A stretch of 25,088 nt of DNA, taken from the IMG/VR virus record IMGVR_UViG_3300017767_003307, positions 1 to 25,088 of that record; one strand, given 5' to 3'. Of this stretch, positions 1 through 16,599 are shown piece by piece; position 1 is the first letter of the stretch, and the number at the start of each line of letters is the position of its first letter. Below the pieces are notes generated by a model, which saw only the letters and a list, made by a program, of their open reading frames with translations, made no database searches and was not told the origin of the DNA. The translations under genes and the position numbers were made by a program. This stretch comes from a virus.

Positions 1-144
1 GCTTCTAATGCTACTTCAGCTACTGTAAACTACTTTATAGCAGGTGTATTCGATGGAACTGTTGCTGACGCCGCAACAGCTCAAGCAGATCATAGAGGTA
101 ACATTAGAGTAGATTCTTCTAATGATATCTTTATTTATGTATAA
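1..144 (+). CDS. C-terminal end of an unrecognised, probably structural, protein (partial)
   Basis: The first 47 codons of the window form an open frame that ends at TAA 142-144; its start lies outside the window. The visible residues are rich in Ala, Thr, Asn and Asp and end in a beta-strand-like stretch (RGNIRVDSSNDIFIYV). This resembles the C-terminus of a virion decoration or fibre-type protein, but I cannot assign a family. The next gene follows within 30 bases on the same strand. Composition and position before fibre genes suggest a structural role, which is inference. Confidence 0.6.
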   Translation, partial: ASNATSATVNYFIAGVFDGTVADAATAQADHRGNIRVDSSNDIFIYV

Positions 145-170
145 AAAATTAAATGTGGTTACGGAAAATT

Positions 171-344
171 ATGGGACTTATAGATAAAGTCAAAAAAGAT
201 AATAGAAAAGAGTCTGATCTTACAATTCAAGACTGCGAATTTTTACTCGCAAAATTAAGATCTGCAAGTTATACTGGTGATGAATTCGAACAATTCTATT
301 TAGTATTCAAAAAAGTTACAGAAATAATAGAAAAACAGAAATAA
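171..344 (+). CDS. Small helical protein of unknown function
   Basis: A 57-residue charged protein beginning MGLIDKVKKDNRKE, predicted by eye to be mostly helical, with no signal peptide or membrane segment. An upstream in-frame ATG at 153 would add six residues (MWLRKI). I prefer 171 because MGLIDKVKK is a natural phage-style N-terminus and the purine-rich ACGGAAAA lies just before it, but neither start has a true Shine-Dalgarno. The gene is the last one before the terminator at 350-368, so it closes the preceding transcription unit. I do not recognise the family and propose no function. Confidence 0.6.
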   Translation: MGLIDKVKKDNRKESDLTIQDCEFLLAKLRSASYTGDEFEQFYLVFKKVTEIIEKQK

Positions 345-349
345 AATTT

Positions 350-368
350 GGCCTTCGGGCCTTTTTTT
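350..368 (+). terminator. Rho-independent terminator
   Basis: A GGCC stem, a TTCG tetraloop and a GGCC stem (350-361) are followed directly by seven T residues (362-368). It starts 6 bases after the stop of the small gene and lies 15 bases before the TATTTATTT motif, so it separates two transcription units. The UUCG loop makes the short stem unusually stable. Confidence 0.88.
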
Positions 369-382
369 ATTATATTATTAGT

Positions 383-395
383 ACTATTTATTTAA
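383..395 (+). promoter_or_regulatory. Candidate phage promoter element, copy 1 (ACTATTTATTTAA)
   Basis: This is one of seven TATTTAT copies found in the gaps between structural genes. The 13-mer ACTATTTATTTAA is identical to the copy at 16883-16895. It lies directly after a terminator and 63 bases before the start of the 92-residue fibre-type gene, where a new promoter is expected. Promoter function is inferred from position and recurrence only. Confidence 0.42.
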
Positions 396-407
396 AACCT
401 ATTATTG

Positions 408-426
408 GCCCGTAAGGGAAGTGGGC
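408..426 (+). other. Possible 5'-leader hairpin before the fibre genes
   Basis: GCCC (408-411) can pair with GGGC (423-426) across an 11-base loop in the leader between the candidate promoter and the ATG at 458. The stem is short and followed only by CTCTTT, so it is weak as a terminator. The 345-457 gap otherwise holds only the terminator and the promoter motif. Confidence 0.22.
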
Positions 427-457
427 TCTTTGAGTAACCAACCGTAAATAGAATAAT

Positions 458-4145: not shown

Positions 4146-4883
4146 ATGAGTATTTTAAATAAAAACTATATTAAGAGTAGTATTACTAATAATAAAGATA
4201 AACCTGTTAACTATAGATGGACTCATGGTGCTACAGACAATGACTTAGGTGATGGTTTATTAGTATATTCTATTATCCAGTATATGAGAGCTAAAGTATG
4301 CGTATGTTTAGGTTCAGGAGGTGGATTTATACCTAGAATAATGACTAAAGCAAGGCAAGATCTACATGAAGCTGGTATATTTGAAGGTAATAATGATATG
4401 AGCTGGGGGGATATAGGGGCAACGTTCGTAGTTGATGCATCTAATAACATAGGAGGTAAAGTAGACTGGTTAAATAAAGATTCTTACTTTAGAAAGACGT
4501 TTTGTCCACGTATAATAAACGAAACTACTGAGAAAGCTTATTATAACTTCTTTGTTAAAGAGGATATTAAGATAGATTACTTGCATATTGACGCAGGCCA
4601 CTCATATAAAGACGTAAAACAAGATTTTAACCTATATATTAAGTTATTATCTAAGAAAGGTATAGTATCTATTCACGATACTGATAAATCTTATTCAAAA
4701 GACTATATAGTTACTAAAGATATAAAAGATCAAGATAATTTCCAAGAATTTACCGATGGTCCATCTAAGTTTATAGTAGATTTAAAGAAAGATACTAAGT
4801 GGAACGTATTTAACTTATTTAATAACGGTATATTAAAATCAAAACCTAGTTCAACAGGGTTAACTATAGTACAACATGCTTAA
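4146..4883 (+). CDS. Class I SAM-dependent methyltransferase
   Basis: A 245-residue cytosolic protein. VCVCLGSGGGFIPR (about residues 51-64) is the glycine-rich SAM-binding loop (motif I). FVVDASN (94-100) carries the acidic residue at the end of strand 2. YLHIDAGHSYKDVKQDF (145-161) and IVSIHDTD (173-180) match the strand 4/5 region of the Methyltransf_24 family, whose members often methylate sugars or are found in polysaccharide clusters. It sits between two glycosyltransferase genes and overlaps the next by 8 bases, so O-methylation of a sugar is the most likely role. The acceptor cannot be read from the sequence. There is no Shine-Dalgarno before ATG 4146. Confidence 0.75.
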   Translation: MSILNKNYIKSSITNNKDKPVNYRWTHGATDNDLGDGLLVYSIIQYMRAKVCVCLGSGGGFIPRIMTKARQDLHEAGIFEGNNDMSWGDIGATFVVDASNNIGGKVDWLNKDSYFRKTFCPRIINETTEKAYYNFFVKEDIKIDYLHIDAGHSYKDVKQDFNLYIKLLSKKGIVSIHDTDKSYSKDYIVTKDIKDQDNFQEFTDGPSKFIVDLKKDTKWNVFNLFNNGILKSKPSSTGLTIVQHA

Positions 4884-5715
4884 TTTAGTTACAGTAGTAG
4901 GTGAGAATACTCATATTCTACCTCATATGCTCAAACATTACGAGAATATAGTAGATAAAGTATATGTTGGAGTATACAGACAGTCATCTGACGATAGTAT
5001 ATTAGAAGAAATAGAAGAATTAGGTATAGAACCGTTTATGATCTATACTGAACCTAAATATAACTGGGAAAGAGTGACTGAAATCTACAATAGTGTAAAA
5101 CAAACTAAAAAAAATGACTGGTGGATAGTATCAGACGATGATGAACTTCAAGTATACCCTGATAATATAGAGTATATTATTAAACAATGTGATAAACATG
5201 GTTATTCTTTTGTTACCGGAGGGTTTATAGATAGAATAGGTATAGACGGTAGATTTCCTAAAGTAAGCAGAGAAACGAATATACATAAGGCTTTCCCCAA
5301 TGCAGGATTCTTTAGATACCCTATGTCTAACGCCTGTCCTAATAAGGTAACCTTAATGAAAGGTAAAGTAAAAGTAACTTCTGGTCAGCATTACGTAGAT
5401 TTTGGTAATAATCAAACTAGCTGGGGTATTAAACACCCTAATAGAATGCCTATAGAAGAATGTTTTACTCAAGTACATCATTTTAAGTGGGATAGCACCT
5501 GTATTAGTAGATTAAAGAAGGTAGCTGATGTTAAAAAGGACTATTCTTTCTCTTCTGAATACGAAATCATGTATAATGCTATAATGAACTCTAATAGTAA
5601 AATTGATATTGCTAATCCTGAGTATTTAGTTGAAAAATTAAAGGAATTTTCGTATATTAATTACTACGATTATACCAATTGGAATAAATTAAGAGATAAA
5701 ATAGTAAAAATATGA
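4876..5715 (+). CDS. Family 2/92-like glycosyltransferase
   Basis: A 279-residue GT-A enzyme. It begins with VTVVGENTHILPHMLKHYENIVDKVYVGV (the 'leave home, walk to a distant interlocutor' start typical of Glyco_tranf_2_4/GT92-like proteins). WWIVSDDDELQVYP at 82-95 follows, with the DDD providing the metal-binding DXD. The block GGFIDRIGIDGRFP and the HHFKW segment near residue 200 are also typical of the group. The last 60 residues are helical. The reaction is transfer of a sugar from a nucleotide donor to an unknown acceptor. It overlaps the methyltransferase by 8 bases and the next small gene by ATGA, which suggests translational coupling. Confidence 0.74.
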   Translation: MLNLVTVVGENTHILPHMLKHYENIVDKVYVGVYRQSSDDSILEEIEELGIEPFMIYTEPKYNWERVTEIYNSVKQTKKNDWWIVSDDDELQVYPDNIEYIIKQCDKHGYSFVTGGFIDRIGIDGRFPKVSRETNIHKAFPNAGFFRYPMSNACPNKVTLMKGKVKVTSGQHYVDFGNNQTSWGIKHPNRMPIEECFTQVHHFKWDSTCISRLKKVADVKKDYSFSSEYEIMYNAIMNSNSKIDIANPEYLVEKLKEFSYINYYDYTNWNKLRDKIVKI

Positions 5716-5942
5716 GTTTAGAACTTGAAAAACAGCTTTTAGAAGAAAGAAAAGTAAAAGCGTTAGAAAAAATAGGTGATACTTTAGATGCTCTTACAAT
5801 ATGGTTTGAAGAAATAGATAAAGATGAATGGAGCAATAGATTACAGTTTTATTTAGGTGAATTTCATAAAATAGTACCAAAAGAAGTAGATGAAACAGAA
5901 ACACAAACTGGGAGTGATAGTTCCATACAGGAACAGACCTGA
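5712..5942 (+). CDS. Small acidic helical protein overlapping the next gene
   Basis: A 76-residue protein starting at an ATGA overlap with the upstream glycosyltransferase. Residues 1-57 are helical and charged (MSLELEKQLLEERKVKALEK ... WFEEIDKDEWSNRLQFYL). The last 18 residues (DETETQTGSDSSIQEQT) are low-complexity and acidic and are read from DNA that also encodes the first 17 residues of the downstream GT7 enzyme in another frame (5890-5942). The disordered tail suggests the downstream gene's constraint shapes that stretch. I do not recognise a family. It may be a small partner of the glycosyltransferases, which is speculation. Confidence 0.6.
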   Translation: MSLELEKQLLEERKVKALEKIGDTLDALTIWFEEIDKDEWSNRLQFYLGEFHKIVPKEVDETETQTGSDSSIQEQT

Positions 5943-7305
5943 TCAACTTAAGGTTTTTAAAGAGTACATTTCAAATTATCTTTATAGTAAGCAGATTACT
6001 CATGAAGTTATAGTAGTTGAACAGCAAGATGATAAACCTTTTAACAGAGGATTACTTCTTAATTGGGGGTGTAGAAAAGCTGAATGGGCAGAATGTGATT
6101 ACGTAGTTTTCCACGATATAGATATGCTTCCAGTTAATGTGGACTACTCTTATAGTGATAAACCACTTCACTTAGTACAAAATTTAGAGATACCAGATGA
6201 AGAGGACTCTCTCTTTTATGATTATTTTGGGGGTGTTACTATGTTTACGTTAAAGGATATTAAAAAAGTAAATGGATATTCTAATAATTACATAGGTTGG
6301 GGATTTGAAGATGATGATTTATTCTTAAGATGCCTTAGAAATGGAGTAAAGATGGATACTTTAGAGTGGGGACAGAGAAGACATTCGGGCATCGGTCTTC
6401 AATTCAATGGTAAAGATTCTTATGTAGCTATAGATAACCCTATTTTAAGAAATAAAGAGTTTAGTATATTTGGTAGCTTCACTACAGATAGTTTAGAGTG
6501 TAATTTAGATTACGAATTCGACGAAATGAGTATTTTTTCCTTTCCTGGTCGAGATATTGCACTTAGTTATCGCTCATTTATGAACTTTAACTTTCAACTT
6601 TGGGATAAATTTATGAATTCTCATTCTATCTATACTAAAAAATATCCATTCGGTAGTTATAATTACGTTATTACTTTTAATTTATCAGGAGAAACGAAAG
6701 AAGTAGAGTTTTATATTAACGGTAGTTTTGTAGGAAGTAAAACTTTGGATTCTTTTGTAAATATTAGTCGTAGTAACAAAAAATTACTTTACCTAGGTTC
6801 AGGAGATCCTAATAGAGAAGTAAAACCTAATTTCTTTAAAGGGCTCATAAATAATTTTGCTATTTACGACAAAGCTCTTACTAATAGTGATATAGCTGAT
6901 ATAAGTAATAACACCAAATATAGTTTATTCGAATATAAAAGTGGTCGAAATTTAATCTTATACTTTGATAGTAAGTTTATTTCTAATAATTCATTTGTTG
7001 ATTTAGCAGGAAGTAGTAATAATATTATAAAAAATTGCAAAAAAGTAGTTACTACTGAACAAACTAGAAAAAAGGTTCCTGTACCTTTTAGAAGACCAGG
7101 AATATTCAAAGCTATACCTCATAAAAATTCTGGTTTTACAGATACTTGGGCGGATTGGTCTAGTAGAACTAATCAACATAAATATTTTAGAGTATTAGAC
7201 AACGAATCTTCTCTTGATAAAGAAGATGGGCTGTCTACTTATTGGGGAGAACTTACAAAAGAAGATAAAGGTAACAATTTTAACCATCTATATGTCAAAT
7301 CATAA
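5890..7305 (+). CDS. GT7 (beta-1,4-galactosyltransferase-type) enzyme with an inserted LamG-like domain, copy 1
   Basis: A 471-residue protein. The N-terminal part carries the GT7 hallmarks in order: LGVIVPYRNR (7-16), VVEQQDDKPFNRGLLLNWG (42-60), the HDID metal site (75-78), DYFGGVTMFTL (111-121) and NGYSNNYIGWGFEDDDLFLR (128-147). In animal beta4GalTs the C-terminal catalytic segment with the metal-binding His follows at once. Here residues about 165-345 instead form a LamG/concanavalin-like domain (GLQFNGKDSYVAI, EVEFYINGSFVG, NFFKGLINNFAIYDKALTNS). The catalytic tail resumes near residue 400 with FKAIPHKNSG (His411) and EDGLSTYWGEL. It should transfer a hexose or HexNAc, while the insert could bind a glycan acceptor. 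Specificity is unknown. It overlaps both neighbours and has no signal peptide or membrane helix, so it should be cytosolic. Confidence 0.82.
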   Translation: MKQKHKLGVIVPYRNRPDQLKVFKEYISNYLYSKQITHEVIVVEQQDDKPFNRGLLLNWGCRKAEWAECDYVVFHDIDMLPVNVDYSYSDKPLHLVQNLEIPDEEDSLFYDYFGGVTMFTLKDIKKVNGYSNNYIGWGFEDDDLFLRCLRNGVKMDTLEWGQRRHSGIGLQFNGKDSYVAIDNPILRNKEFSIFGSFTTDSLECNLDYEFDEMSIFSFPGRDIALSYRSFMNFNFQLWDKFMNSHSIYTKKYPFGSYNYVITFNLSGETKEVEFYINGSFVGSKTLDSFVNISRSNKKLLYLGSGDPNREVKPNFFKGLINNFAIYDKALTNSDIADISNNTKYSLFEYKSGRNLILYFDSKFISNNSFVDLAGSSNNIIKNCKKVVTTEQTRKKVPVPFRRPGIFKAIPHKNSGFTDTWADWSSRTNQHKYFRVLDNESSLDKEDGLSTYWGELTKEDKGNNFNHLYVKS

Positions 7306-8656
7306 GCTAGGAGTATGTGTTCCTTATAGAAATAGAGAGTTACATCTTAATGAATTTATTCCTAAAGTAGGAAAATTCTTAAAAGATGCAGGAATAGACT
7401 TTCGAATGTACTTTGCTCATCAAGTTGATGATAAATTATTTAATAGAGGTGCTATGAAAAATATAGCAGCTAAACATGCCTTAGAAGACGGGTGTGATTA
7501 TATAGTATGGCATGATATAGATATGATTCCGGAAGATAATTCTTGTGATTATTCGTTTCCTGGAGACTTTCCACAGCATATAGCAGTTAGAATATCTCAA
7601 TCTGATTATAAACTTAAATATTTTGAATATTTCGGTGGTGCAGTAATCTTTTCTAAAGAACAAGTAGAAAAAACTAATGGTTATTCAAATGAATACTGGG
7701 ATTGGGGTATGGAAGACGATGATTTATTTTGGAGATGTTATTTAGAAGGTTTATTAGACGTAACTACTAGTAGTATGGATACATTTCCACAACATTATTA
7801 CTTTGACGGCAAAGATAGTAAGATACAAATACCTCACAGTATATTACCTGATAGCTTTTTTCAAAGAGAATTTGAAATATCAGTACTTGTAAGAGCTGAA
7901 CATCAACAAGATAAAGCTCCTATTCATCTTATAGGGGATAATGACTCTAAATTTTTTGAATACCCTATATTTAGAATACCAGGAGAAGATTTTGGTATAT
8001 CTTTTAATAACTCTAGAGCATATACATTACAGTTTTTCAATACTTTTCACCAACATAACTATATGTGGGTAAAAAGATATGCAAATTTATGGACTTGGAT
8101 TACTGCTAAATTTAATCCTCGTGCTAGAAAAGTAAATTATTATCAAAATGGAATCGAAGCTGATGTTGATTTAGGGCATGGAACTGAATCTCCTTTACTT
8201 TATAACGGTAGATTAAGCAGTAAATATAAAGGAAAAGATATTTTCTTAGGTTATACTCCTTCCTTTACTGAAGATTACCCAGGTAAAAGATTTAAAGGAG
8301 GAATAGGTGAAGTTATTATAAAAAGTCAAGGAGAAACTATATGGAAACTTTCTGAGAGTAGTGTAGATACTAAAGATAATGTAGAAATAGTAAATGAAGA
8401 TATGACAATATTTAATACTATTATTCCTCACCGTAGAAACGGTAAATTTAGATGCTTACCTCATAAAGATGAAGGTTTGGTTAACGGCAGATGGTCTAAA
8501 GGAGCTACTACTGCAAAAAATGAACGTAGATATGTATTAGAAATGCAGCAAGGTAAGTATAACTACAAAAATGAAGGTATAAATAGTTTAAAATATAGTT
8601 TAGTAAACGAAGAAGTACTAACTCCTTGGGCTAAAATGTTAAATGTAAAGGTTTGA
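7292..8656 (+). CDS. GT7 (beta-1,4-galactosyltransferase-type) enzyme with an inserted LamG-like domain, copy 2
   Basis: A 454-residue paralogue of the preceding gene. An in-frame ATG at 7214 would add 26 residues lying inside the upstream gene. I chose ATG 7292 because MSNHKLGVCVPYRNR then aligns with MKQKHKLGVIVPYRNR of copy 1. GT7 motifs: VDDKLFNRGAMKN (45-57), WHDIDMIP (73-80), YFGGAVIFSK (113-122) and NGYSNEYWDWGMEDDDLFWR (129-148). Residues about 168-352 are a LamG-like insert (YYFDGKDSKIQIPHSI, YYQNGIEADVDLG, FKGGIGEVIIKS). The tail FRCLPHKDEG (His391) and NEGINSLKYSLVNEE match the end of animal beta4GalTs (H...NSLTY) better than copy 1 does. It overlaps copy 1 by 14 bases and its TGA overlaps the next ATG. 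Confidence 0.82.
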   Translation: MSNHKLGVCVPYRNRELHLNEFIPKVGKFLKDAGIDFRMYFAHQVDDKLFNRGAMKNIAAKHALEDGCDYIVWHDIDMIPEDNSCDYSFPGDFPQHIAVRISQSDYKLKYFEYFGGAVIFSKEQVEKTNGYSNEYWDWGMEDDDLFWRCYLEGLLDVTTSSMDTFPQHYYFDGKDSKIQIPHSILPDSFFQREFEISVLVRAEHQQDKAPIHLIGDNDSKFFEYPIFRIPGEDFGISFNNSRAYTLQFFNTFHQHNYMWVKRYANLWTWITAKFNPRARKVNYYQNGIEADVDLGHGTESPLLYNGRLSSKYKGKDIFLGYTPSFTEDYPGKRFKGGIGEVIIKSQGETIWKLSESSVDTKDNVEIVNEDMTIFNTIIPHRRNGKFRCLPHKDEGLVNGRWSKGATTAKNERRYVLEMQQGKYNYKNEGINSLKYSLVNEEVLTPWAKMLNVKV

Positions 8657-10116
8657 TGGAAGAAAAAAAAATGTTAACCAAGTATAAAAAAAAACTCGAT
8701 AAAGTCGGCTGTGGGTTTTGTATAGCTAAATGGACTCAAGTTACTATTCACCTACAAATGGGTGAAACTCATTCCTGTCACCATCCTAAAACTCATAAAA
8801 TTAACTTACATGAAATAAAACGTAATCCTTCTGCATTACACAATACTCAATATAAAAAACTTCAAAGAAAAAAAATGCTTGAAGGAGAACGTCCTTCTGA
8901 ATGTGAATACTGTTGGAACGTAGAAGATAATTCAACCGAATTTTCTGATAGAATTTATAAATCTTCAGAACCCTGGTCAAGACCTTTCCTAAAGCAGATC
9001 CAAGACTTAGGTTGGAGAGCTGATTTCAATCCTAAATATGTAGAGGTAGCATTTTCTAACGCATGTAATTTTAAATGCTCTTACTGTGGTCCATCGTTTT
9101 CATCCTCATGGGTACAAGAGATAAAAAAATATGGGCCCTATCCTACTGAAGATAATTTTAACGACTTGGGCTGGCTAGAGAAAGAAGGTAAAATGCCAAT
9201 CAATCATAAAGAACATAACCCCTACGTAGAAGCTTTTTGGAAGTGGTGGCCAGATTTGTATAGAGATTTACATACATTTAGAATTACTGGTGGTGAACCT
9301 TTATTAGCTAAAGATACGTGGAAAATTTTAGATTATATAATTACTAATCCCGACCCGAATAAGAAATTAAAATTAGGTATAAATTCAAATCTCGGCGTAC
9401 CTGACAACTTAGTTGATAATTTGATAGAAAAGTTAAAAATAATAGAAGAAAACAATCTTGTAAAAGAAGTTATAATTTATACATCTGTAGATACTGCTGG
9501 TTCTCATGCAGATTATATTCGCAACGGATTAGATTATGATAAATTTTGTGGCAACGTAAATAAAATACTTGGGAATACTACTAAAGTAGCTTTCGTAATT
9601 ATGTCTACTTTTAATTTACTTTCTATTCCACGTTATAAAGAGATGTTAGGTTTTGTTTATAATATGAAAAAAGAATACAATAGCGATTTAAGATACTGGA
9701 ATCCAGCAATTATGGTTGATTCTTCTTACTTAAGATATCCTCTTCACCAGGCAGTTAATTTACTTCCTAAAGAGTGGGCTAAAAAAGTAGAAGATATAGC
9801 CGACTTCGCTGAAGGTTTAAGAGCAGTAAATAGAACTTCAGATGAAGAAAAATATCTTCCTCGTCATACAGGATTTACAGATATAGAAATTTCTAAAATA
9901 AAAAGGATAGCTGACTGGATGAGAGGAGATCATGATGAAGAAAGAATAAAGAAATCTAGAATAGATTTTTATAACTTTATGAAAGCTCATGATGAACGTA
10001 GAGGTACTGATTTCAAAAAAACATTTCCTGAATTAAGTCAATTTTATGAATTTTGTAAAAGGTTAAAAGAACATGAGAGTCGCAGTTTGCTTCAGAGGAC
10101 AGCTAAGGACGTATAA
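8656..10116 (+). CDS. Radical-SAM enzyme with N-terminal twitch-type cysteine region
   Basis: A 486-residue protein. The radical-SAM cluster motif CNFKCSYC lies at residues 137-144 (Cys 137, 141, 144), preceded by YVEVAFSNA and followed by the SAM-binding TGGEPLL (211-217). The N-terminal 90 residues hold Cys 19, 22, 41, 83 and 86 (CGFC, SCHHP, CEYCW), with NLHEIKRNPS and MLEGERP between. This is the layout of 'twitch domain-containing' radical-SAM proteins with an extra Fe-S cluster. The reaction is unknown; in glycan clusters such enzymes often oxidise, epimerise or rearrange sugars. ATG 8656 overlaps the upstream TGA (TGATG) and has AAAGG 5 bases before it. A TTG at 8653 is possible but less likely. 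Confidence 0.8.
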   Translation: MEEKKMLTKYKKKLDKVGCGFCIAKWTQVTIHLQMGETHSCHHPKTHKINLHEIKRNPSALHNTQYKKLQRKKMLEGERPSECEYCWNVEDNSTEFSDRIYKSSEPWSRPFLKQIQDLGWRADFNPKYVEVAFSNACNFKCSYCGPSFSSSWVQEIKKYGPYPTEDNFNDLGWLEKEGKMPINHKEHNPYVEAFWKWWPDLYRDLHTFRITGGEPLLAKDTWKILDYIITNPDPNKKLKLGINSNLGVPDNLVDNLIEKLKIIEENNLVKEVIIYTSVDTAGSHADYIRNGLDYDKFCGNVNKILGNTTKVAFVIMSTFNLLSIPRYKEMLGFVYNMKKEYNSDLRYWNPAIMVDSSYLRYPLHQAVNLLPKEWAKKVEDIADFAEGLRAVNRTSDEEKYLPRHTGFTDIEISKIKRIADWMRGDHDEERIKKSRIDFYNFMKAHDERRGTDFKKTFPELSQFYEFCKRLKEHESRSLLQRTAKDV

Positions 10117-12241: not shown

Positions 12242-12929
12242 TGGCTGTAGCTTTATAGCCGGACATGTTGAACAGACTTCCACTACTCTTGGTTATCATT
12301 TAAAAAACTTATCAGGAAAAGCACCTATAAATTTAGCTTTACATGGTAGTGGTAATGAAAGAATGTTTAGAACTACATATGAATATTTAAGTAATAATAA
12401 AATTACTAACAGCTTAGTAGTTTTAGGCATAACTCATTGGGCAAGAATGGAACTTTATGATGAAATTAAAGAAAAATTTTATCATATAAATTTTTGGAGT
12501 AATAATTTTAAAAGTATGTTAAATGAGGTTTTGACTAATATTAAATCTAAATACGTAGATAATGAAATTGAATTAATAGATAATAAAGGATGGGATAGTA
12601 CTTTCTTAAAAAAATTTATAATATTTTATTTAGCTGCTTTTAAAAACGAAAAAATTGAAAGAGAGAAAATTGAAAGAGAAATCATACTTTTTGAACATTA
12701 CTGTAAGGCTAACAACAATATATTAATTACTTTTAATAGTCTAGACGGCGCATCAGAATCTTTTAAAAGCCAAAGTTATATTAAAATACAAAATTATAAT
12801 AACTGGAGTGATATAGTAGAGACTAAAAACCTACACCATTCTGATCCAGACTTTTCAGCACATCCAAACAGTGAATCTAATCTACAAGTAGCTAAATTAA
12901 TTCTCAAAGAATATGAGATACGTAATTGA
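12222..12929 (+). CDS. SGNH/GDSL-like hydrolase family protein
   Basis: A 235-residue protein. LNGCSFIAG (6-14) sits where SGNH enzymes have GDS(L), so the nucleophile would be Ser10, with Cys in place of the usual Asp. Gly42 and Asn45 in LHGSGNERM (block II/III region) and the C-terminal DPDFSAHPNSESN (DXXH-like: Asp followed by HP) complete the pattern. Members act as esterases, deacetylases or, within polysaccharide clusters, as acetyl-transfer partners. The lack of a signal peptide argues for a cytosolic role. It overlaps both neighbours (20 and 17 bases). A 15-base in-frame duplication encodes KIEREKIERE. The catalytic state is uncertain because of the GCS substitution. Confidence 0.6.
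   Translation: MENIILNGCSFIAGHVEQTSTTLGYHLKNLSGKAPINLALHGSGNERMFRTTYEYLSNNKITNSLVVLGITHWARMELYDEIKEKFYHINFWSNNFKSMLNEVLTNIKSKYVDNEIELIDNKGWDSTFLKKFIIFYLAAFKNEKIEREKIEREIILFEHYCKANNNILITFNSLDGASESFKSQSYIKIQNYNNWSDIVETKNLHHSDPDFSAHPNSESNLQVAKLILKEYEIRN
12651..12680 (+). repeat. 15-base in-frame tandem duplication
   Basis: Two adjacent 15-base units, at 12651-12665 and 12666-12680, differ only in their last base. They encode KIERE twice within a helical part of the SGNH-like protein, so the change preserves the frame. Confidence 0.8.
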
Positions 12930-13212
12930 CATTGACGGTACTATATGTTCAGAAGAAGGACCTGTAGAGAAAAGAATACCAATTCCGGAACGAATAAAAT
13001 ATATTAATAAACTTTACGAAGAAGGGCATCATATAGTTTATTGGACAGCTAGAGGATTAAAAAGTGGAAAAGGAGAAAAATATTATAGACCTATTACCGA
13101 AAAGCAATTAAAAGCATTTGGTTGTAAATATCATGCATTAGGTTTTAAATCTCATGATGCTGATATATTTATAGATGATAAGGCTATCAACGATAAAGAT
13201 TTTTTTAAATGA
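12913..13212 (+). CDS. Small HAD-superfamily phosphatase of the capsular-biosynthesis type
   Basis: A 99-residue minimal HAD protein. YVIDIDGTIC (3-12) is motif I with nucleophile Asp6 and Asp8. VYWTARG (42-48) is motif II with Thr45. Lys79 in GFKSHDADIF is the likely motif III Lys. IFIDDKA (85-91) is motif IV with Asp88/Asp89. There is no cap domain, as in small phosphatases annotated as 'capsular biosynthesis protein'. The expected reaction is hydrolysis of a phosphate from a sugar or small-alcohol phosphate. It lies directly before a nucleotidyltransferase gene (ATGA overlap), so both probably act on the same building block. The overlap with the upstream gene is 17 bases. Confidence 0.78.
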   Translation: MRYVIDIDGTICSEEGPVEKRIPIPERIKYINKLYEEGHHIVYWTARGLKSGKGEKYYRPITEKQLKAFGCKYHALGFKSHDADIFIDDKAINDKDFFK

Positions 13213-13940
13213 ATCAGTTTATGAATATAGTTTTGCCTATGGCAGGACAAGGTTCTAGATTTAGGAAAGCAGGTTATAAAAATTCAAAACCTTTTATAGA
13301 TGTAGATGGGCTACCTATGGTAGCTAAAGTTATTAAAAATTTAAATATTGAATTTAATAATAAATTTAACTTTGTTATAGTGTGTCTAAAAGAAGATTAT
13401 ATTAATTATGACATTAAAAACAAATTAGATTCTTTATTTAAAAAAGCTAACTTTAAATATGTTGTATTAGATAAAATGACTGAAGGAGCAGCTCAATCAG
13501 TACTAGTTGCTAAAGAATATATAGATAATACCCATCCGTTATTAATTTTTAACTCTGATCAACTTATCGAGTATGCTCCAAATATTGCTTTTTCTCAATT
13601 GAGTTTACATGATGGAGGAATATTATGTTTCGAAGGTACTGGTCCTGAATGGAGTTATGCAAAATTAGATGATGACGGCTATGTAATAGAAGTTGCAGAA
13701 AAAGTTGAAATTTCAAATTGTGCAACTGCAGGTTATTATTACTGGAACAGAGGAAAAGATTTTGTAAAGTATGCAGAGCAAATGATTTATAATAATGACC
13801 GCTCTAAAAATGAGTTTTATGTAGCACCTGTTTTTAATTATGCTATAAAGAACGGTAAAAAAATCGTAACATATATGGTAGATAAGGTATATCAGCTAGG
13901 TACTCCTGAATATTTAAAACAGTACTTAAGTGGTAAATAA
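13209..13940 (+). CDS. Nucleotidyltransferase (sugar or small-molecule phosphate NTP transferase)
   Basis: A 243-residue protein of the NTP_transferase fold. VLPMAGQGSRF (8-18) is the nucleotide-binding GXGXR loop. KNSKPFIDVDG (24-34) carries the signature Lys27-Pro28. TEGAAQSVL (91-99) and FNSDQ (114-118, with metal-binding Asp117) follow. GTPEYLKQYL near the end is also typical of the family. It should couple a phosphorylated building block to NTP, releasing pyrophosphate, to make an activated donor. Relatives of this compact type act in capsule pathways with HAD and PLP enzymes. The base and substrate cannot be told from sequence. The ATGA start overlap with the HAD gene supports 13209 rather than Met5. 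Confidence 0.8.
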   Translation: MNQFMNIVLPMAGQGSRFRKAGYKNSKPFIDVDGLPMVAKVIKNLNIEFNNKFNFVIVCLKEDYINYDIKNKLDSLFKKANFKYVVLDKMTEGAAQSVLVAKEYIDNTHPLLIFNSDQLIEYAPNIAFSQLSLHDGGILCFEGTGPEWSYAKLDDDGYVIEVAEKVEISNCATAGYYYWNRGKDFVKYAEQMIYNNDRSKNEFYVAPVFNYAIKNGKKIVTYMVDKVYQLGTPEYLKQYLSGK

Positions 13941-14856
13941 ACCTATAACATACGCATATTTAGAGACAACAAACTACTGCAATTTACAGTGCAGTTTTTG
14001 TAATAGAGAAGAAGTCATAGGTCATCTTCAACATATGCCGATAAGTAAATGGCGTTCATTATTAGATTCTATTAAACATCACCCTATTAACGAAGCTAAA
14101 TTAATGGGAATGGGCGAACCATTATTACATCCTCAATTCGATGAAATATGTAAAATATTTAAAGAATATTTTCCTAATGCTTTTCTTATAGTAGCTACTA
14201 ATTGTCAATACCCAGTAAAACCTAATACTAAAATGGGTATAAAGTTTGAAAAAACTATGAAATATGTAGATTTACTGTATTTTAGTATTGATGGCTATAA
14301 AAAGTCTTATGAAAGAGATAGAGCTCCTGCTAAATGGTCTAAACTAATGAGTTTTTTAGAAGATTTTAAATCTATGAATAGAAGTTCGTGTAGAGTTACA
14401 GTTAATTATGTAGTAAACCCTGATAATATAGATGATATACGGAAGATTAAAGATAGTATAGTAGATAAATATAATTTAGAAGAGTTGAGACTAAATATAG
14501 CTCAAAATTGGTCAGAAGATGAATCAATGCCTCTTGGATACTCTAAAGACCAAATAAAATTTTTAAAAGAAAATTGGATAAGCAATATTAAAGGTAGAAG
14601 TGTTTGGGAGTTTAAAGATTGTTTTTGGGTAAACGAAGGATTATATACAACTGTAGAAGGAGATGTAAAAATGTGCTGTATGAATACAGGAGCTACTTCG
14701 CTTGGTAACTTATTTAAACAGTCTATAGATGATATAAGACTACAAGATAGTTATCAAGAAATTAAGTTAGGATGTAATAGTAACGAACCAACTAATCACT
14801 GCAAAAATTGTTCTTATAAGGAATTAGTTCCTATACTTAACGAAATAGGAGTATGA
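13930..14856 (+). CDS. Radical-SAM enzyme with C-terminal SPASM domain
   Basis: A 308-residue protein. TNYCNLQCSFC (14-24) gives Cys17, Cys21 and Cys24 for the radical-SAM cluster; LMGMGEPLLHP is the GGEP-like SAM-binding motif. The C-terminal part has the SPASM layout for auxiliary Fe-S clusters: DCFWVNEGLYTTVEGDVKM, CCMN, LGNLF, CNSNEPTNHCKNC. Unlike the radical-SAM protein encoded at 8656-10116, its extra cysteines are at the C-terminus. SPASM enzymes include peptide-modifying and sugar- or alcohol-oxidising members. In this setting oxidation or rearrangement of a sugar or amino-alcohol is most plausible. The start is GTG 13930, 11 bases inside the nucleotidyltransferase gene; the conserved TNYC motif lies too close to the N-terminus for a later start. 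Confidence 0.82.
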   Translation: MVNKPITYAYLETTNYCNLQCSFCNREEVIGHLQHMPISKWRSLLDSIKHHPINEAKLMGMGEPLLHPQFDEICKIFKEYFPNAFLIVATNCQYPVKPNTKMGIKFEKTMKYVDLLYFSIDGYKKSYERDRAPAKWSKLMSFLEDFKSMNRSSCRVTVNYVVNPDNIDDIRKIKDSIVDKYNLEELRLNIAQNWSEDESMPLGYSKDQIKFLKENWISNIKGRSVWEFKDCFWVNEGLYTTVEGDVKMCCMNTGATSLGNLFKQSIDDIRLQDSYQEIKLGCNSNEPTNHCKNCSYKELVPILNEIGV

Positions 14857-15656
14857 AAAAAGTAATAATTTGTTTTGGTGATAGTTGGACTTCAGGTCAT
14901 TTTTTAGACCCAACAGTTGAATATATTCATTTACTACATGATAATAATAAAGAGTACTGTATTAGTAAGTCTTGGGTAAGGCATCTAGAAAACGAAACTA
15001 AAATTAAAACTATAAATTTAGGAGAACCTGCTAGTTCTAATGATAGGGTAGTTGAAAGAATAGATAACGAATTAGATACTATACTTAATACGTATAAACC
15101 AGAAGATATACTTTGCTTAATAGGTTGGTCTTCACCTGAACGAAGAGATTTTAACATAAAATTTAAAGAATTTAACGAAAGGATAACTTTACTTCCTGCT
15201 GAAGGATTAAATACCGAACAAAAAGAAAGGTTTAAAGATAGTTTTGGTAGTTTTGATGGAAGTCGAATTTCGGATTTTTATGATAATTATTTTTATTATT
15301 TTTGGTGTTTCGAAGAGTATATTCCTAGACATCGTAATAATATAGTATTAACTGATATTATTCTTACTAATCTTAACATAGATGTAATTTATTTTGACGC
15401 ATTTTACCAAACTTCAGGATTTGCAAATAAAGAAACTAAACAAAGTCATTACCAACTAGCTACTTATGGTCAGGTAGGTAAGTTATATAGCCGTATCTAC
15501 AAAAGCAAATTCATACCTTATACTTTTAGAGAGTATTTAGAAAGTATCAATGATAACACTCTTTTTGAAAAAGACGATTATCATCCAACTGAATTAGGTC
15601 ATAAGTTATGGGCTAAACATTTAACTCAGATTTTAAATGATAGAAAGAAAATTTAA
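14853..15656 (+). CDS. SGNH/GDSL-like hydrolase family protein, second copy
   Basis: A 267-residue protein with a canonical start: IICFGDSWTSGH (5-16) gives block I GDS with Ser11. INLGEPASSNDRVVERI contains the block II Gly and the block III-like Asn. CLIGWSSPERRDF follows in the core. DDYHPTELGHKLWAKHL near the C-terminus supplies the Asp/His of block V. The catalytic set looks complete, in contrast to the GCS-bearing protein at 12222-12929. No signal peptide is present. It could remove or transfer an acyl group on a glycan intermediate, but the substrate is unknown. It begins at an ATGA overlap with the SPASM gene and overlaps the next gene by 20 bases. Confidence 0.72.
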   Translation: MKKVIICFGDSWTSGHFLDPTVEYIHLLHDNNKEYCISKSWVRHLENETKIKTINLGEPASSNDRVVERIDNELDTILNTYKPEDILCLIGWSSPERRDFNIKFKEFNERITLLPAEGLNTEQKERFKDSFGSFDGSRISDFYDNYFYYFWCFEEYIPRHRNNIVLTDIILTNLNIDVIYFDAFYQTSGFANKETKQSHYQLATYGQVGKLYSRIYKSKFIPYTFREYLESINDNTLFEKDDYHPTELGHKLWAKHLTQILNDRKKI

Positions 15657-16599
15657 TAAAGATATTCCATTTAATAAAATTAGGTTACATTCTTCAGAAA
15701 GAAACCAAAGTTGGAACGATCTATTTGAATTATTTAAAACCAGTATTAATGATTCTGATATAAGATATTATCCTAATTTAGATAAACTATATTTAAAGTG
15801 CAAAAAATTTTTTAAATGCAATAACCTTATCATAGGTTCAGGTAGTGATAGGTGTATAAAGTATTTTTTTGAAGCTAATCAAAAATATAACAACGTTATT
15901 ACTACTGTTCCATCATTTCCAATGTATAAAGTTTATAGTGATATGTTTGGGTTTAATTTTACAGGAGTAAAGTATAAAACTTTGAATTTTCCTGAAGAAG
16001 AATTTTTGAATACTATTACTGAAGACAGTATAGTTATACTATCTAATCCTAATACTCCAATAGCTCATAAACTTGATATAAGTTTAATCAAAAAAATACT
16101 TGAAAAAAATGTTCCTACTCTAATTGATGAAGCATATATTGAATTTGCAAAAGTTAAATCTATTTCACGCTATATAGAAAAGTATCCTAATTTATACGTT
16201 ACTAGAACTTTTTCAAAAGCATTAGGAAGCGCAGGTATAAGAGCAGGAGTACTATTATCTAATAAAGAAAATATTGAAAACGCTCTTCAGTTTAGAGATA
16301 TGCACGAAATAACAGGACTTTCTGCTAAATGGATTTATATTCTTATTAACAATTACCATTATATAAAGGACTATGTCGATTCTGTTTTATATACTAAACA
16401 AAATATAGAAAAAGTTTTAAAAGAGAAAAATATTTCTTATATTAATTCTTATAGTAACTGGTTACATATTAAAGAACCATTTAAAGTACCAAACGATATA
16501 CTGGTTAAGAAAAATTGTACTATACCAGGCTCAGATGTAACATGGACTAGAATGAGTATTTGTAGCTCAGTTAGCTTTGATTGGTTAAATAAATTATAA
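15637..16599 (+). CDS. HisC-like PLP-dependent aminotransferase or decarboxylase
   Basis: A 320-residue fold-type I PLP enzyme. GSGSDRCIKYFF (67-78) matches the PLP-phosphate loop. SNPNTP (136-141) and DEAYIEF (164-170, with Asp164 for the pyridine nitrogen) follow. TRTFSKALGSAGIRAG (189-204) has the Schiff-base Lys194 and phosphate-contacting Arg202, and TRMSICSS holds a late Arg305 like the substrate-carboxylate Arg of HisC. The family includes histidinol-phosphate aminotransferases and CobD-type phospho-amino-acid decarboxylases. No other histidine or cobalamin genes are present, so a role in making an amino-alcohol or amino-sugar building block is more likely. This is inferred. It is the last gene of the overlapping chain and slightly shorter than typical HisC (about 350). 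Confidence 0.78.
   Translation: MIERKFNKDIPFNKIRLHSSERNQSWNDLFELFKTSINDSDIRYYPNLDKLYLKCKKFFKCNNLIIGSGSDRCIKYFFEANQKYNNVITTVPSFPMYKVYSDMFGFNFTGVKYKTLNFPEEEFLNTITEDSIVILSNPNTPIAHKLDISLIKKILEKNVPTLIDEAYIEFAKVKSISRYIEKYPNLYVTRTFSKALGSAGIRAGVLLSNKENIENALQFRDMHEITGLSAKWIYILINNYHYIKDYVDSVLYTKQNIEKVLKEKNISYINSYSNWLHIKEPFKVPNDILVKKNCTIPGSDVTWTRMSICSSVSFDWLNKL

Follow-up and report, generated by a model that had tools for sequence, protein, structure and literature searches.

A predicted LamG-like domain nested within the GT7 fold of two tandem phage glycosyltransferases

Two neighbouring genes of an uncultured virus encode proteins in which GT7 glycosyltransferase sequence is interrupted by a long lectin-like stretch, raising the question of whether the separated pieces still make one enzyme and what a domain in that position would do. 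The window, meaning the whole stretch of DNA analysed, is a 25-kb virus record (25,088 nucleotides) with contractile-tail genes for sheath, tube and baseplate. Its closest sheath in the phage records belongs to Flavobacterium phages immuto (63% identity), so a Bacteroidota host is plausible from the sequence. The two genes are:

5890..7305, + strand: GT7a, nested GT7-LamG protein P0001, 471 aa (ORF, Pfam, AlphaFold2 model)
7292..8656, + strand: GT7b, nested GT7-LamG protein P0002, 454 aa (ORF, Pfam, AlphaFold2 model)

They overlap by 14 nt, and P0002 most likely starts at the ATG at 7292 rather than at the TTG at 7214. The first-pass annotation had described them as tandem GT7 paralogues with the motifs PYRNR, FNRG, HDID, YFGG and WG.EDDD in both proteins, a metal-binding His in each tail (H411 in copy 1, H391 in copy 2) and NSLKY in the tail of copy 2. 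Both ORFs are real and lie in tandem, and all of these residues were found at the positions claimed. The proteins divide as follows:

5890..6366, + strand: GT7a catalytic front, residues 1-159, with PYRNR/FNRG/HDID/YFGG/GWG.EDDD (Pfam GT7N/GT7C; phmmer)
6385..7071, + strand: nested LamG/pentraxin-like domain of GT7a, residues about 166-394 (Laminin_G_3, fold match)
7084..7302, + strand: GT7a tail, residues 399-471, with metal-site His411, codon 7120-7122 (alignment to beta4GalT1)
7292..7768, + strand: GT7b catalytic front, residues 1-159 (Pfam GT7N/GT7C)
7784..8416, + strand: nested LamG-like domain of GT7b, residues about 165-375 (fold match, insert profile)
8429..8653, + strand: GT7b tail, residues 380-454, with metal-site His391, codon 8462-8464, and NSLKY (alignment, model)

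Profile searches with the GT7N and GT7C models, proposed earlier as a check, assign both proteins to GT7: the Pfam matches had E-values of 2.6e-18 and 3.7e-17 in P0001 and 2.4e-17 and 1e-18 in P0002, with bit scores of 66.4/62.2 and 63.2/67.2 against curated cut-offs of 27/23. Both models were placed within the first 160 residues of each protein. The GT7a front also matched beta4GalT1 directly (phmmer, 1.2e-24), and the tail aligned to the beta4GalT1 tail in sequence order as a second domain match that is weak alone. With single-sequence tools the GT7 match is confined to residues 1-160, as would be expected of a plain C-terminal fusion, meaning a GT7 front with LamG and then an unrelated domain behind it. 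That reading is opposed by the order of the tail match, by the invariance of His411 (67 of 67 rows of the P0001 alignment), by the three-dimensional alignments and by the contiguity of bacterial GT7s across the insertion site.

Structures were predicted with AlphaFold2 from alignments of 67 (P0001) and 43 (P0002) sequences, the relatives having been thinned to below 75% identity (66 of 101 kept for P0001, alignment A1; 42 of 120 for P0002, alignment A2). The models had pLDDT values of 92.8 and 91.9 and pTM values of 0.90 and 0.84, respectively. The P0001 model aligned over residues 1..471 with chain 176..398 of beta4GalT1 (1tvy; 216 residues, Z 26.6, rmsd 2.3), an alignment that places the C-terminal segment within the GT7 core, and the P0002 model aligned over 1..454 with beta4GalT7 (4irq; 210 residues, Z 26.9, rmsd 1.9). 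Both models contain a complete GT-A fold, including the C-terminal tail. The P0001 insert, residues 166..394, best matched the LamG-like structure 4dqa (Z 22.0, 203 aligned), followed by PAPP-A (21.5), PTX3 (18.9) and CRP (17.9); the P0002 insert, about 165..375, matched the PAPP-A LamG domain (Z 17.6, 178 aligned) and PTX3 (17.1). Both inserts therefore take up the jelly-roll fold of a LamG-like domain in the predicted models, as the first-pass annotation had expected, and the earlier claim of a nested domain rather than a C-terminal fusion agrees with alignments that run from the first to the last residue, with the C-terminal piece joining the GT7 core in both. Sequence and predicted structure together confirm one GT7 fold split by one nested jelly roll in each protein, and the insertion site is the turn just before the modelled strand bearing the metal-binding His.

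The insert, about 210-230 residues long, lies between the WG.EDDD part and the tail with the metal-binding His. Its position had been given correctly, and its extent needed revision from residues 165-345 and 168-352 to about 166-394 and 165-375, on the basis of the fold alignments. In P0001, Pfam Laminin_G_3 matched residues 173-336 (5.2e-11, 43.3 bits against a cut-off of 27.6); P0002 alone gave no LamG match in Pfam. The same model was found in 62 of the 67 members of the P0001 alignment and, at E 0.01 or better, in 36 of the 43 members of the P0002 alignment, so that the proposed LamG search succeeded directly for P0001 and through aligned relatives and the insert profile for P0002. The GT7a and GT7b insert profiles match each other (9.7e-16 and 1.7e-22), and the two inserts are therefore homologous. 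Laminin_G_3, the sialidase N-terminal lectin domain and pentraxin were the sequence matches of the insert, which resembles these lectin-like families (PF13385, PF02973, PF00354) in both fold and sequence; it differs from them in lying inside a glycosyltransferase, where its lectin role is a prediction. Chance resemblance is ruled out by the E-values and by conservation across relatives. Weak matches of P0001 to InvG (about 0.001), and of a few members to DUF6169 and Toxin_R_bind_N, were taken as chance or as shared membership of the jelly-roll superfamily, with no sign of a toxin.

Relatives lacking the insert show where it was placed. The loci of relatives were the best 80 of 187 for the P0001 query and the best 80 of 182 for the P0002 query. 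Together with loci from MAGs they form a set of 163, obtained mostly with nested queries, and locus counts from it are not independent because the same contig often appears twice across the P0001 and P0002 loci. Among the matches listed, the insert is present in 342 of the 345 GT7 ORFs of this set, the other three being cut by locus ends. A scan of a genome collection with two patterns gave 60 loci. When the bacterial ORFs were scored with the phage profile (L163-L165 being set aside), 58 of 61 had a tail match downstream, and in 42 of the 61 the match jumps from 150-158 to 400-403 of the profile across a gap of -3 to 6 residues. Seventeen aligned insert-free bacterial ORFs are continuous from the ED.D helix to R.G.F..L.H. 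The insert-free bacterial profile, applied to viral contigs, matched 110 ORFs in 83 loci (the best 80 of 503 plus three from another search); among these listed matches, 63 ORFs are contiguous, 44 carry the LamG insert and 3 are incomplete, and in nested phage ORFs the profile breaks near position 180. The contiguous match of the insert-free relatives thus fixes the boundaries of the insert. Such relatives, whether bacterial or from other uncultured phages, have the same core and no LamG insert, and animal beta4GalTs likewise have a short turn before the metal-site His instead of an inserted domain. Contradicted by the fold alignments and by the contiguous bacterial GT7s, the C-terminal fusion is very improbable and was dropped.

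A bacterial origin of the nested form was also rejected, the only full-length matches among the 60 genome loci being L163, L164 and L165, which lie in MAGs that bear the labels Flavobacteriales and Pelagibacterales. These loci have the cassette in the same order as in phages and are probably phage contigs binned into MAGs; rarer bacterial nested forms may escape the two-pattern scan.

Phylogenies of the GT7 core were computed twice, first with 34 of the 67 A1 rows (every second), all 43 A2 rows and 42 of the 61 bacterial ORFs, and then with 38 nested rows, 16 contiguous viral rows and 20 bacterial rows; the bacterial rows were taken alternately, and four that were long or partial had been named for exclusion. 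The B copies formed one clade (99*), as did the A copies if L119, a copy first labelled T, is counted in. Once insert-free viral GT7s were included, the unconstrained search did not group all 38 nested rows, and seven insert-free viral rows were placed, relative to the main branch, on the same side as the nested forms; the best tree holding the 38 nested rows together had a log-likelihood 5.5 higher (AU p 0.63). The insert tree likewise parts A from B. The nested forms are thus compatible with one clade on these sequences, and the simplest reading, which is also a probable one, is that the domain entered a phage lineage once and that duplication came afterwards. Some contigs carry a third nested copy, which among the matches listed has lost catalytic residues in 14 of 15 rows (L025, L028, L030, L035, L044, L045, L047, L050, L055, L057, L058, L077, L136 and L143); the fifteenth, L119, is an intact GT7a-like copy.

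The catalytic residues of the pair itself are well preserved. Among the matches listed, counting ORFs of at least 400 aa, 102 of 102 GT7a rows and 103 of 106 GT7b rows have all 14 sites of a signature (R, N, R, DxD, Y, GG, W, ED, His, N, G). Animal beta4GalT1 and beta4GalT7 share with the phage proteins the GT-A fold, the DxD, YFGG and WG.EDDD motifs, the metal-site His and the DGL/NSL tail. The position three residues before the His, which we take to be that of the metal-ligand Met in bovine beta4GalT1, is Cys in 36 of 43 rows of the P0002 alignment and variable in that of P0001. The Tyr preceding FGG (67 of 67 rows of the P0001 alignment, 40 of 43 of the P0002 alignment) presumably corresponds to Tyr289 of beta4GalT1, with its role in the choice of UDP-Gal as donor. 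Since this donor-pocket Tyr is kept, UDP-Gal is suggested and is probably the donor, by analogy with the animal enzyme. The split fold and the intact residues imply active GT-A transferases, and P0001 and P0002 are most likely hexosyltransferases, an activity predicted from sequence and models.

The pair belongs to a conserved cassette in the order DUF6734 (optional), MTase24, GT2, 76-aa protein, GT7a, GT7b and twitch radical SAM, sometimes ending with a free LamG ORF after the radical SAM. In the window its other members are:

4146..4883, + strand: Methyltransf_24 (Pfam 6.2e-10; homologue in 139 of the 163 loci listed)
4876..5715, + strand: GT2-like glycosyltransferase (Pfam Glyco_tranf_2_4, 3.2e-06; homologue in 157 of the 163 loci listed)
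5712..5942, + strand: 76-aa protein directly upstream of GT7a (homologue in 160 of the 163 loci listed, overlapping loci included)
8653..10116, + strand: twitch-domain radical SAM protein (NCBIfam NF033640, 355 bits against a cut-off of 170; homologue in 153 of the 163 loci listed)

Among the matches listed, GT7a and GT7b are adjacent in 100 of 103 distinct pairs, with a spacing of -4 nt in 63 and -1 nt in 27, again for ORFs of at least 400 aa. The 76-aa protein retains W31, W40, R43 and Y47 in all 106 rows listed; it was rejected as a RiPP precursor, its conserved part being a helical middle and not a core peptide with Cys, Ser or Thr. The GT2, 76-aa and radical SAM neighbours occur in none of the 63 contiguous viral loci listed, whose flanks are mostly 2 kb. 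Among the matches listed, 40 free LamG-like ORFs, 27 of them distinct, follow the radical SAM gene and encode about 190-270 aa (for example, L133:6914-7645 and L165:8593-9393). GT7 matches were present in 25 of 25 larger contigs; 16 of the 25 also had a sheath gene, and the cassette lay upstream of it on the same strand in 16 of 16. Elsewhere in the window (12913-16599), HAD, nucleotidyltransferase, radical SAM/SPASM, GDSL-like and HisC-like aminotransferase genes resemble a sugar-nucleotide or small-molecule pathway.

The best explanation, to which we give a probability of roughly 0.6, is that the locus encodes two soluble GT7 (beta4GalT-kind) GT-A enzymes in which the nested lectin-like domain keeps hold of the acceptor or product; acceptor positioning and product recognition were also the roles suggested in the first-pass annotation. 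The pair would add beta-linked hexoses in succession to a glycan or glycoprotein begun by the neighbouring GT2. In beta4GalT1, a loop near the strand with the metal-site His closes over the donor; the phage insert would keep the acceptor or product next to the active site, close to the donor-closing loop, and this holding could govern acceptor choice or processivity. In protein O-mannosyltransferase, the MIR module sits inside the chain. That luminal carbohydrate-binding module is reported to affect processivity (PMC7759382), and the nested phage domain could hold an acceptor as lectin modules do in other transferases such as this one. Protein O-mannosyltransferase differs in being a membrane enzyme of another GT family whose MIR module has a beta-trefoil lectin fold.

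Mean pairwise identity is 33% (GT7a) and 36% (GT7b) in the insert against 59% and 62% in the catalytic front, which fits a recognition part; it is also 38% and 47% in the C-terminal GT7 tail, and insert variability is weak evidence for recognition because the tail varies too. LamG/ConA-like folds are often protein-binding or purely structural. The insert might be a docking or virion-anchoring domain that keeps the GT7 in a complex without recognizing sugar; its partner protein could be a tail fibre, one of the other enzymes of the cassette or the 76-aa protein. The third copies that have lost catalytic residues (14 of 15 rows listed) retain the insert, which would be expected if binding were also a function of the fold, and the 76-aa protein is tightly conserved next to the pair. 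LamG domains in phages have been reported in connection with tail fibres and virion components (PMC7824862). We nevertheless regard docking as unlikely, since the closest insert sequence matches include sialidase lectin domains besides pentraxins and no given partner is tied to the insert.

For the acceptor-holding reading, the acceptor is most likely a surface glycan, on either the phage's own virion proteins or the host envelope. If the latter, the enzymes would remodel host LPS or capsule against superinfection, with the insert as acceptor module for that polysaccharide; this overlaps the preferred explanation and differs by naming the host envelope as target. Jumbo-phage glycosyltransferase clusters are so interpreted (PMC7824862), and genes of sugar-nucleotide type also occur in the window. 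However, the constant placement of the cassette upstream of the sheath fits virion decoration too, and gene placement is not decisive by itself; we hold the host-envelope target to be possible, at somewhat less than even odds. Virion decoration could go further, in that the nested GT7-LamG pair might form the core of a modification system not yet described in phages, together with the methyltransferase, GT2, 76-aa partner, twitch radical SAM and sometimes a free LamG protein. Such a system would build a distinctive glycan on the particle; the nested lectin would read every newly added sugar ahead of the following step, and the dead third copy would serve as a reader subunit in some lineages. 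We consider this scheme unlikely.

GT7 and LamG are each known; a literature search, with most subscription-journal papers and all preprints outside its scope, found no description of the nested GT7-LamG architecture. In the Aureococcus anophagefferens virus, an algal giant virus, LamG proteins and a putative beta-1,4-galactosyltransferase are reported from the particle as separate proteins (PMC7507832). GT7a, GT7b, the radical SAM, GT2 and 76-aa proteins, as well as two insert-free viral GT7s, had no match in 50,697 phage records, 2,606 of which were matched by the sheath. The nested form was not found in the phage records searched and is widespread in uncultured myovirus contigs. It provides a clear case of a lectin-like module within a well-studied glycosyltransferase fold, with insert-free relatives that allow direct comparison, and the pair marks a conserved gene cassette. 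The nested arrangement, common to many uncultured phages, suggests a built-in grip on the molecule being decorated.
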